This document shows, piece by piece, positions 4,456-29,045 of a stretch of DNA of 59,295 nucleotides. Source of the DNA: Thomasclavelia sp. (GTDB lineage Bacteria > Bacillota_I > Bacilli_A > Erysipelotrichales > Coprobacillaceae); NCBI GenBank assembly GCA_028749475.1, contig JAQVWN010000010.1:1-59295 (forward strand). The letters are read 5' to 3'. The notes under the pieces were generated by a model, which worked only from the letters and a program-made list of their open reading frames with translations, ran no database searches and was not told the origin of the DNA. Position numbers and translations under genes: made by a program. How positions within the stretch are numbered: the stretch's first letter is position 1; every line of letters starts with the position of its first letter.

Positions 4456-4497
4456 ATTAGTATTTTACCATGAAACATTGTTTCATGAAATACTAAT
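4456..4497. promoter_or_regulatory. Candidate operator of the RpiR-type regulator
   Basis: The perfect palindrome ATGAAACA-T-TGTTTCAT spans 4470-4486 and is nested in outer arms ATTAGTATTT (4456-4465) and AAATACTAAT (4488-4497). TGAAA/TTTCA half-sites are typical of RpiR-family operators. On the minus strand it fills the spacer before an extended -10, TGGTAAAAT (TAAAAT at 4467-4462), so binding would block the regulator's own promoter. Confidence 0.6.
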
Positions 4498-4542
4498 AAT
4501 TTATCCATTTTATGAAAACTGAGTATTATTATTTTTAAACAA

Positions 4543-4595: not shown

Positions 4596-5978
4596 ATGGA
4601 AAAGAAATTATCTAAAGATTTTTATTGGGGTGGATCTGTATCTTCATTCCAAACTGAAGGAGCTTATAATGAAGGAGGAAAGGGTGTATCAATTTATGAT
4701 GTCAGACCTACTCCAGAAGGACATGCTGATTGGAAAGTAGCTATTGATGAATATCATCGTTATGATGAAGATATTGCTTTAATGAAAGAAATGGGATTTA
4801 ATTTTTATCGTTTTTCAATTTGTTGGAGTCGTATTATTCCTAATGGAGATGATGAAGTTAATGAAGAAGGAGTTAAATTCTATAATGATTTAATTGATAA
4901 ATTAATTGCTGCTGGAATAACACCTATGATTACTCTAGTTCATTTTGATATGCCTAATCATTTAGTAGAAAAATATAATGGATTTGCATCAAGAGAAGTA
5001 GTTGATCTATTTGATAGATACGCTAGAGTATGTATCGAAAGATTTGGTGATAGAGTTAAACACTGGATGAGTTTTAATGAACAAAATCTTCATTCATGTG
5101 CATTAATTTATTCAAACGCTGAAAAAATACCTGAAGGTAAATCTTTACCACAACATTTATATCAAGTAGCTCATAATGTTATGATTGCTCACTGTAAAGG
5201 AGTTAAGGCATTAAGAGAACTTCAACCTGATGCTAAATGGGGTGGAATGACTACAGTTACTAATTATTATCCTGCAACTGATACTCCAGAAAATAACTTA
5301 TTCTGTCAAAAAGCTTATAATCTTGTTAGTGCATGGGTAGCTGATGTTCATGCTAATGGAAAATATCCTTCATATTATGAAACATACTTAAAAAATAGAG
5401 GATGGTTCCCAAAATTTGAAGATGGTGATGAAGAACTATTAAAATACACTGTTGATTATGCTTGTTTCTCATACTATCGTTCAAATACTCTTACAACAGG
5501 AGAATTTGATTATGAAACTCCATTTAATGATATAGTTTCGAAACATGTAATTAAAAATCCTCATTTAGATGCCACTGATTGGGGATGGGAAAAAGATGCT
5601 ATTGGATTTAGATGGATCTTAAATGAAATGTACCAAAGAAATAAATTACCATTATTTGTTTTAGAAAATGGTATGGGTGCAAGAGAAACTGAAATGTATG
5701 ATGAAACTGGAGAAATTAATGATGATTATCGTATTGAATATCATCGTAATCATATCCAAGAAATGAAAAATGCTATCTTAGAAGATGGAGTAGATTGTAT
5801 GGGTTATGTTACATGGGGACCTATCGATATTCCTTCATCATCTTGTGAAATTGCTAAACGTTATGGTTTCGTATATGTAAATAGAACTGATGATGATTTA
5901 AGAGACTTAAAGAGAGTACCAAAGAAATCATTCTATTGGGTATCAAAAGCCTTTAAATCTAATGGTGAAGATTTATAA
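4596..5978 (+). CDS. Glycoside hydrolase family 1, probable 6-phospho-beta-glucosidase
   Basis: Hydrolyses phosphorylated beta-glucosides (cellobiose-6-P, salicin-6-P type) delivered by a PTS; cytosolic. The 460-aa length is normal for GH1. The N-terminal signature FYWGGSVSSFQTEGA is present, the acid/base Glu is E162 in SFNEQN (NEP is usual), and the nucleophile is E357 in VLENG. The C-terminal SSSCEIAKRYGFVYV (about 412-426) carries the Ser, Lys and Tyr that bind the 6-phosphate in this subfamily, which argues for a phosphorylated substrate. No PTS permease is adjacent, so the transporter must be encoded elsewhere. Probably controlled by the divergent RpiR-type regulator. Confidence 0.85.
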   Translation: MEKKLSKDFYWGGSVSSFQTEGAYNEGGKGVSIYDVRPTPEGHADWKVAIDEYHRYDEDIALMKEMGFNFYRFSICWSRIIPNGDDEVNEEGVKFYNDLIDKLIAAGITPMITLVHFDMPNHLVEKYNGFASREVVDLFDRYARVCIERFGDRVKHWMSFNEQNLHSCALIYSNAEKIPEGKSLPQHLYQVAHNVMIAHCKGVKALRELQPDAKWGGMTTVTNYYPATDTPENNLFCQKAYNLVSAWVADVHANGKYPSYYETYLKNRGWFPKFEDGDEELLKYTVDYACFSYYRSNTLTTGEFDYETPFNDIVSKHVIKNPHLDATDWGWEKDAIGFRWILNEMYQRNKLPLFVLENGMGARETEMYDETGEINDDYRIEYHRNHIQEMKNAILEDGVDCMGYVTWGPIDIPSSSCEIAKRYGFVYVNRTDDDLRDLKRVPKKSFYWVSKAFKSNGEDL

Positions 5979-6000
5979 TTTTCAAGTTTAAGAAAATGTA

Positions 6001-6031
6001 TTGTTATTTATTTCTTATTTGTTAATATAAT
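6001..6031 (+). promoter_or_regulatory. Promoter of a candidate small RNA
   Basis: Perfect TATAAT at 6026-6031 with TTGTTA at 6001-6006; the spacer of 19 bp is long. No open reading frame follows before the terminator at 6144. Confidence 0.5.
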
Positions 6032-6037
6032 AGTGAA

Positions 6038-6178
6038 AAAGGTAATACCTTATAAATACATTCCGTTTATTACTAATAGTAGACGTACTATTAGAGTAAT
6101 AAACACATGGCTTAATTGCTGGTTTGCCGGATGTGCAAACAAGAAATGCTATCTTAATTGATAGCATTTTCTTTTTTT
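6038..6178 (+). ncRNA. Unassigned structured small RNA between the beta-glucosidase gene and htpG
   Basis: A non-coding segment of about 140 nt bounded by its own promoter and an intrinsic terminator. It can form a short hairpin AAGGT/ACCTT (about 6039-6051), then a long hairpin at 6065-6104 (GTTTATTACT/AGTAATAAAC plus AATAGTA/TACTATT, loop GACG), then GTTTGC/GCAAAC at 6122-6140 with loop CGGATGT. That loop is complementary, with one bulge, to ACATTCCG at 6057-6064, which suggests a pseudoknot. It does not match the riboswitch, SRP, 6S or tmRNA cores I know. Its end lies before the htpG promoter, so it is not an htpG leader. Confidence 0.5.
6144..6178 (+). terminator. Terminator of the candidate small RNA
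   Basis: AAATGCTATC (6144-6153), loop TTAATT, GATAGCATTT (6160-6169), then TC and seven T. Confidence 0.85.
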
Positions 6179-6186
6179 AAATTTAT

Positions 6187-6213
6187 TTAGCACATAAGTA
6201 TTGACAGTGCTAA
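6187..6213. promoter_or_regulatory. CIRCE operator 1 (HrcA site)
   Basis: TTAGCACAT-N9-CAGTGCTAA matches the CIRCE consensus TTAGCACTC-N9-GAGTGCTAA in the seven outer bases of each arm. It contains the -35 box of htpG. Confidence 0.8.
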
Positions 6214-6229
6214 AATTAGGTATTATTAT
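6201..6229 (+). promoter_or_regulatory. htpG promoter
   Basis: Consensus TTGACA (6201-6206), 17-bp spacer, TATTAT (6224-6229). It lies between two CIRCE operators, the first covering the -35 and the second the likely transcription start. Confidence 0.85.
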
Positions 6230-6233
6230 ACTA

Positions 6234-6260
6234 TTAGCACTTGGAGATAAGTAGTGCTAA
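6234..6260. promoter_or_regulatory. CIRCE operator 2 (HrcA site)
   Basis: TTAGCACTT-N9-TAGTGCTAA differs from the CIRCE consensus only at the innermost base of each arm. It covers the predicted start of transcription and ends next to the htpG ribosome binding site at 6261. Confidence 0.85.
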
Positions 6261-6273
6261 AGGAGATATATTT

Positions 6274-8163
6274 ATGGCTAGAAAAAAACAATTTAAAACG
6301 GAATCAAAAAAGATATTAGATTTAATGATTAACTCTATTTATACTCATCGAGAAATCTTTTTAAGAGAGCTTGTTTCTAATGCATCTGATGCAATTGATA
6401 AATTATATTATAAAGCTTTAACTGAAAACATTTCTTCAATTAATAAAAAAGATTTTAAGATTGACCTTACATTAAATAAAGAAGATAGAACAATTACTAT
6501 CGAAGATAATGGGATTGGGATGGATAAAGATGAACTAGAAAAAAATCTAGGGACTATAGCTAATAGTGGATCATTAAACTTTAAACAAGAAAATGATCAT
6601 GATGATATTGATATTATTGGTCAATTTGGTGTTGGTTTCTACTCAGCTTTTATGGTTGCAAAACAAGTTGATGTTTATTCTAAAAAATATGGAGAAAATG
6701 AAGCTCATTTATGGACTAGTAAAGTAACTGATGGTTACGAAATTAAAGACTGTGACTTTAATCATAATGGAACAAAAATTGTTCTTCATTTAAAAGACAA
6801 TACCCCAGAAGAAAACTTTGATGATTATTTAAATCAATTTGAAATTAAATCACTAATTAAAAAATACAGTGATTATGTTCATTATCCAATTAAAATGGAT
6901 TTAACAACTTCTAAGAAAAAAGAAGATAGTGATGAATATGAAGAAGTTGTTGAAAATACAACTTTGAATTCTATGATTCCATTATGGAAAAGAAATAAAA
7001 GAAGTATCAAAAAAGAAGAATACAATGAATTCTATAAAGATAAATTTAATGACTATACTGATCCATTAAAAGTAATTCATACTAGTGTTGAAGGAACAGT
7101 TTCTTATGATGCATTATTATTCATTCCTTCTAAAACTCCAATGAATTATTATTCAAAAGATTATGAAAAAGGACTTCAATTATATTCTAGAGGAGTATTT
7201 ATTAAAGATAATGCTAGTGAACTAATTCCTGAACATTTTAGATTTGTTAAAGGATTAGTTGATTCTCAAGATTTATCATTGAATATTTCTCGTGAAATGC
7301 TTCAACATGATCGACAACTTCAAATTATTGCTGGAAAACTTGAAAAGAAAATTAAATCTGAATTAGTTAAAATGTTAGAAAAAGATCGTGAAACATATGA
7401 AAAATTCTTTGCTAATTTTGGTATCCAATTAAAAGCCGGAATTTATCAAAGTTATGGTTCTTTAAAAGATGAACTGCAAGATTTACTTTTATATTATTCT
7501 TCTAAAGAGGATAAAATGATTACTTTAAAAGAATATGTAAGTAATATGCCTGATAGTCAAAAAGAAATTTACTTTGCTTCTGGTGAAACAAGAGACAAAA
7601 TCTCATTATTACCTCAAGTAGAAGCAGTTAAAGATAAAGGATTTGATATTTTATACTTAACTGATAATATCGATGAATTCTGTTTCCAAATGATGAGAGA
7701 ATATGACAAAAAAGCCTTTAAGAATGTAGCTCAAGGTGATTTAGATATTGAATCTGAGGATGAAAAGAAAGCTACTGCTAAAAAAGAAGAAGATAACAAA
7801 GAAATGTTAGACTCTATTAATGAAGCTTTAAAAGGAAAAGTTGAAAGCGTCAAACTATCATCTAGATTAAAATCTCATCCTGTTTGTTTAGTTTCTAAAG
7901 AAGGTATTTCATTTGAAATGGAAAAAGTATATAACTCTATGCCAGATGGTCAAAGTGTTAAGGCTAGTAGAATACTTGAAATAAATCCTAATCATGATAT
8001 CTTTGAGGCAATTAAAAAAGTTTACAGTAAAGATAAAACAAAAATTAATGATTACGCTAATTTATTATATGATCAAGCCTTACTTATTGAAGGGTTCCAA
8101 TTAGAAAATCCAGTGGAATTTTCTAATCAAATCTGTCAGTTGATGATAGATGCTAATAAATAA
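6274..8163 (+). CDS. htpG: Molecular chaperone HtpG (Hsp90)
   Basis: Cytosolic ATP-dependent dimeric chaperone. The start is ATG 6274 (629 aa, MARKKQFKTESKK), with AGGAGA at 6261-6266. A TTG 33 bases earlier is in frame but lies inside the CIRCE operator and has no ribosome binding site. The GHKL ATPase domain shows ELVSNASDAIDKL, DNGIGM, and GQFGVGFYSAFMV. The middle domain has SRGVFI and SLNISREMLQ, and the C-terminal dimer domain is complete. Control by two CIRCE boxes makes it part of an HrcA regulon, unlike B. subtilis htpG, which is CIRCE-independent. Confidence 0.95.
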   Translation: MARKKQFKTESKKILDLMINSIYTHREIFLRELVSNASDAIDKLYYKALTENISSINKKDFKIDLTLNKEDRTITIEDNGIGMDKDELEKNLGTIANSGSLNFKQENDHDDIDIIGQFGVGFYSAFMVAKQVDVYSKKYGENEAHLWTSKVTDGYEIKDCDFNHNGTKIVLHLKDNTPEENFDDYLNQFEIKSLIKKYSDYVHYPIKMDLTTSKKKEDSDEYEEVVENTTLNSMIPLWKRNKRSIKKEEYNEFYKDKFNDYTDPLKVIHTSVEGTVSYDALLFIPSKTPMNYYSKDYEKGLQLYSRGVFIKDNASELIPEHFRFVKGLVDSQDLSLNISREMLQHDRQLQIIAGKLEKKIKSELVKMLEKDRETYEKFFANFGIQLKAGIYQSYGSLKDELQDLLLYYSSKEDKMITLKEYVSNMPDSQKEIYFASGETRDKISLLPQVEAVKDKGFDILYLTDNIDEFCFQMMREYDKKAFKNVAQGDLDIESEDEKKATAKKEEDNKEMLDSINEALKGKVESVKLSSRLKSHPVCLVSKEGISFEMEKVYNSMPDGQSVKASRILEINPNHDIFEAIKKVYSKDKTKINDYANLLYDQALLIEGFQLENPVEFSNQICQLMIDANK

Positions 8164-19628: not shown

Positions 19629-19634
19629 CTAGGT

Positions 19635-19845
19635 AATCTAATGATTGGGATTAAGTAATAATAACTGTTTAGAGAAGACATGTTTGGTGAAAATGTCTAG
19701 TTAAAATTATGGGACACCCATGAAGAGTTACTTTGAATTAAGTAGAAGTAAACGTTAATCGCGTTAAGATTTAAGTGCGTACAATATGTACGAATAAAGG
19801 TGGTACCGCGTATAAAACGTCCTTTAATTAGGGCGTTTTTTATAT
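19635..19845 (+). promoter_or_regulatory. T-box leader controlling hisS-aspS (His/Asp specifier)
   Basis: tRNA-sensing attenuator. The distal stem I loop region TTTGGTGAAA and the T-box AAAGGTGGTACCGCG (about 19797-19810) are conserved, and the terminator AAAACGTCCT/AGGGCGTTTT plus T-run ends the leader. Aligning stem I with the tyrS T-box in this window (where the specifier is TAC) places the specifier at CAC, His, 19715-19717. The codon overlapping it, GAC at 19713-19715, is Asp. The leader precedes hisS and aspS, so both tRNAs are relevant. Confidence 0.9.
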
Positions 19846-28828: not shown

Positions 28829-28834
28829 TTTGTC

Positions 28835-29045
28835 AACGACTTTGAAGGAACATAGTAACTAGTAGTAATGTTTAGAGAACTTATGGTTGGTGAAAATAAG
28901 TCATTTAAACTAGTGAATACAGTCTGGAGTTTCTATATTAAAAGTATAGACGTTAATTGCGTTAAAATAGAGAGCGTATATAAATATACGAATAAAGGTG
29001 GTACCGCGAGACTTCGTCCTTTGGATGGAGTCTCTTTTTATTTTA
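28835..29045 (+). promoter_or_regulatory. T-box leader controlling tyrS (Tyr specifier)
   Basis: Stem I carries GGTTGGTGAAAATAAG and the specifier TAC (Tyr) at 28918-28920 in the context GTGAA-TAC-A. The T-box AAAGGTGGTACCGCG lies at 28995-29008, and the terminator GAGACT...AGTCTC with a T-run ends the leader. Uncharged tRNA-Tyr would stabilise the antiterminator and allow tyrS transcription. Confidence 0.93.

Follow-up and report, generated by a model that had tools for sequence, protein, structure and literature searches.

Between a GH1 gene and htpG, the analysed DNA may encode a lineage-restricted, non-coding structured RNA of ~140 nt, a reading to which we give a probability of about one half. 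The RNA would end at the intrinsic terminator at 6143-6178 and would be made either from a weak promoter or as the terminal part of the GH1 mRNA. We favour it because the region has the potential to fold, carries a strong terminator, is absent from relatives with the same gene order and belongs to no known RNA family. The present evidence reveals no new RNA class. If transcribed, it would represent a small RNA that a single lineage acquired recently within a known gene neighbourhood, and would be useful for studying the origin of RNA genes. All positions are those of the window, that is, the whole stretch of 59,295 nt that was analysed.

Table 1. Features in and around the gap between the GH1 gene and htpG.
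Feature	Position	Strand	Basis or remark
GH1 6-phospho-beta-glucosidase-like gene	4596..5978	+	upstream neighbour; Pfam PF00232, E 1.6e-129
Open frame, 60 codons, overlaps the RNA; 42 aa from GTG 6033	5979..6161	+	probably not a gene
TATAAT, -10-like hexamer, possible weak promoter	6026..6031	+	sequence; best -35 TTGTTA at 6001-6006, spacer 19
5' hairpin, weak	6039..6051	+	fold; pair probabilities 0.55-0.84
ACATTCCG, candidate strand of a pseudoknot with 6128-6134, one U bulged	6058..6065	+	pattern position; duplex -5.3 kcal/mol
17-bp hairpin, 4-nt loop, 2-nt bulge	6065..6104	+	fold; pair probabilities mostly 0.8-1.0, lower near the bulge
Small GGC/GCU hairpin	6109..6120	+	fold; probabilities 0.80-0.95
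6-bp hairpin GUUUGC/GCAAAC, 7-nt loop CGGAUGU (6128-6134)	6122..6140	+	fold; probabilities ~0.92
Intrinsic terminator, strong	6143..6178	+	terminator scan, 0.0 expected in shuffles; core pairs 0.99-1.0
htpG promoter TTGACA-17-TATTAT (6201-6229) and two CIRCE-like operators	6187..6260	+	promoter scan; operators read from the sequence
htpG	6274..8163	+	NCBIfam NF003555, E 1.3e-208

Predicted fold of the RNA

The segment 6035-6178 (144 nt) folds at -40.6 kcal/mol in RNAfold (z -5.66), a value that none of 200 shuffles reached. The terminator is the only one that the terminator scan places on the + strand of the gap. Fold and terminator together support what the sequence-only reading had proposed, namely a structured RNA closed by a terminator. 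The three hairpins described there are likewise present in the predicted fold, where the 17-bp hairpin has a 2-nt bulge and a weak 5' hairpin joins them. With the terminator left out (6035-6144), the fold energy is -26.9 kcal/mol (z -3.23), which 1 of 200 and 2 of 1000 shuffles matched. Ranked by fold energy among all 1185 segments of 110 nt on the + strand, the RNA body comes about 15th. Its fold energy is notable, and by itself not exceptional or unique in the window.

The gap itself is a separate argument that some RNA or DNA content is under selection here. At 295 nt (5979-6273), it is the longest intergenic gap of the whole window. Its best 90-nt stretch has a GC content of 35.6%, compared with 37.8 and 34.4% in the two gaps that hold T-box leaders and at most 31.1% in the other gaps measured; only these three gaps in the window exceed 34%. 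GC-rich islands in long gaps are the criterion of the DIMPL pipeline (PMC8723152), and it is by this combination of length and GC peak that the gap stands out. The two T-box leaders (RF00230, 117 and 134 bits) are located on the + strand at 19632-19827 and 28833-29024. They resemble the RNA before htpG in their long, GC-peaked gaps and strong folds. Unlike them, this RNA has no T-box match, and the downstream gene is served by a separate promoter that lies beyond the terminator.

The loop CGGAUGU could pair with an upstream strand to form a pseudoknot around the 17-bp hairpin. The sequence-only reading had placed this strand at 6057-6064. Loop and pairing potential hold, but the strand lies one position further downstream, one U has to bulge out of the pairing and the duplex energy is modest. 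The last G of ACATTCCG (G6065) also closes the 17-bp stem, so that two pairings compete for it, and a loop-to-strand match as good as ACATTCCG/CGGAUGU was found in 14 of 1000 shuffles. Keeping both strands unpaired in the nested fold costs just 0.6 kcal/mol. The possible pseudoknot is therefore compatible with the other helices.

If the RNA is made, it may act in trans as a base-pairing small RNA, or it may stabilise an mRNA as a 3' UTR. Contact sites would be the single-stranded segment 6052-6064 and the CGGAUGU loop, which may be exposed or paired with each other. A far bolder version would see in it a novel class of structured small RNA that is confined to the genus. Here ACAUUCCG and CGGAUGU would form a pseudoknotted core enclosing the 17-bp hairpin, and this core would bind a protein, a metabolite or an mRNA and so link sugar use to the neighbouring heat-shock gene. 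We consider this version highly doubtful.

Possible promoter, reading frame and origin of the predicted transcript

The start of the RNA could be set by a weak promoter near 6026. The TATAAT hexamer that had been taken for its promoter is indeed present, but its -35 box matches at 4 of 6 positions, the spacer is 19 nt long and the hexamer is absent from the output of the promoter scan. TATAAT also occurs 82 times on the + strand of the window (1.4 per kb). Alternatively, the RNA could form the 3'-terminal part of the GH1 mRNA, for which there is no terminator besides this one: the terminator scan found none within the first ~165 nt past the GH1 stop. The GH1 protein matches NCBIfam 6-phospho-beta-glucosidase subfamilies below their cut-offs. 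An inverted repeat with 22-nt arms and a 1-nt spacer lies at 4456-4500, between the GH1 gene and the minus-strand gene of an RpiR-family regulator, and is likely the operator of that regulator.

Since an independent promoter is only weakly indicated, the RNA could equally well come from the 3' UTR of the GH1 mRNA. The earlier suggestion of an independent small RNA thus stands as regards structure, terminator and the lack of an Rfam match, but not as regards a convincing promoter of its own. This raises the question whether the region is anything beyond a GH1 3' UTR with its terminator, in which the hairpins occur by chance or protect the mRNA end and no separate RNA function exists. We regard this as a serious possibility, at less than even odds. 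The missing second terminator and the weak TATAAT promoter speak for it, as does the fact that several other segments of the window fold equally well. On the other hand, both the length and the GC peak of the gap are unusual in this genome, and several separate hairpins exceed what a terminator needs.

The sequence-only reading had held that the gap contains no reading frame. This is incorrect, as 5979-6161 is open for 60 codons and includes a GTG at 6033. The uninterrupted frame could point to a gene for a small protein of 42 aa or the relic of one. Yet no Shine-Dalgarno sequence precedes it, and the GTG lies 1-2 nt past the -10 box. Searches against Pfam, NCBIfam and phage proteins gave no match, and 316 genomes yielded only very weak matches, the best of which are interrupted by stop codons. 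It would also be unusual for coding DNA to contain a 17-bp hairpin halfway along. Lacking a Shine-Dalgarno sequence and a convincing relative, the frame is probably not a gene, and a small protein or its relic is an unlikely explanation of the region. Nonetheless, the frame counts against the lineage-restricted RNA that we prefer, together with the absence of homologues or conservation, the weak promoter and the rank of the fold.

Homologues and gene neighbourhood

We searched for related sequences in the family (43 genomes), the order (316 genomes), a sample of the class (395 genomes), phages, plasmids and the GTDB genome collection. The genome that contains the window is the sole representative of its genus among the genomes compared. 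Judging from the best HtpG matches, it belongs to a family in which GTDB names, among others, Thomasclavelia and Erysipelatoclostridium. An Rfam 15 scan of 5900-6300 at gathering and permissive thresholds returned no family (best score 21.7 bits, where the threshold is 80), in agreement with the earlier impression that the RNA matches no known family. In BLASTN searches of 60 relatives, the matches besides the window itself were short, the best ones falling on the terminator. BLASTN against phages and plasmids gave a single match, weak and incomplete, which covers the terminator.

In the family, order and class sets, a covariance model gave weak matches only (E 0.2-2.2) and no homologue. The model was built from a single sequence and is therefore weak at long range, so diverged homologues could escape it. 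The weak matches that we inspected fall within protein-coding regions or next to a tRNA gene, with many pairs broken or the pseudoknot strands missing, which is consistent with chance. A strict pattern found nothing in the GTDB genomes. The pseudoknot pattern gave many matches in the 316 genomes, mostly in GC-rich sequence and, as judged by eye, with the hairpins missing. Inspected matches from viral pattern scans had no fitting RNA context and seemed to be chance matches. We also rejected a mobile repeat, since the 17-bp hairpin is single copy, with no convincing second copy in the genome.

Intergenic regions upstream of htpG, which the sequence-only reading had suggested collecting, lack the RNA in the relatives examined. 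The GH1 gene lies directly upstream of htpG in five relatives from three genera (L043, L046, L048, L051, L058), and all five keep this neighbourhood without the RNA, which was not found upstream of htpG in relatives. Their spacers hold a short terminator directly after GH1 in four of five cases and otherwise nothing, an arrangement that fits a plain GH1 3' UTR. The RNA would thus have arisen in this lineage, unless the others have lost it or altered it past recognition. With no relative in the bacteria searched, it is best regarded as specific to the strain or species, be it a small RNA or an mRNA tail. Within the family, the order GH1-htpG is conserved in three or more further genera.

Control of htpG

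Beyond the terminator, htpG carries two CIRCE-like operators around its -35 and start region, at 6187-6213 and 6234-6260. These operators we take to belong to the CIRCE (HrcA) family. A double CIRCE-like arrangement upstream of htpG is also present in many members of the family. Judging from the operator type, htpG is probably under HrcA control. With its own promoter and two CIRCE-like sites past the terminator, htpG would not need the RNA. The terminator had been proposed to set the RNA apart from htpG, and these sites lie past it.

A structured RNA and a terminator ahead of a gene, together with a possible pseudoknot, also recall a riboswitch, here a cis-acting, ligand-sensing leader that attenuates htpG. 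Besides the separate promoter and operators of htpG, the terminator itself speaks against such a leader. Its helix has a pairing probability of ~1, and leaving out its 3' arm makes the best fold 11.9 kcal/mol less favourable. No antiterminator is predicted to compete with it in the fold, which is evidence against a riboswitch. Riboswitches are normally conserved, and no conserved aptamer was found upstream of htpG in relatives or in the genomes searched. An orphan ligand-sensing RNA, as had been considered, is thus disfavoured, and we judge the riboswitch very improbable.

Comparison with known RNAs

The closest counterparts of the lineage-restricted RNA proposed here are the trans-acting small RNAs of Firmicutes, either derived from 3' UTRs or intergenic, which form a functional class and not a sequence family. 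Shared traits are a length of ~140 nt, several stem-loops, exposed single-stranded patches, an intrinsic terminator at the end and an adjoining metabolic gene. Unlike them, the predicted RNA before htpG has no homologue in the genomes searched and no known target.

The genome carries cas9, and a small hairpin RNA with a terminator resembles the tracrRNA of type II CRISPR systems. A detached tracrRNA or other CRISPR-associated RNA was nevertheless rejected, its probability being close to nil. The type II CRISPR-Cas locus (L156, contig C23, 5902-14001) comprises cas9, an array of more than 30 repeats and its own anti-repeat just upstream of cas9. The repeat on C23, GTTATGTTATTTTGAATGGTATTAAAAC, does not occur in the RNA before htpG, nor does an anti-repeat to it. 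The two genes directly upstream of the CRISPR-Cas locus resemble, as read from their sequence, a McrB/McrC-type restriction pair.
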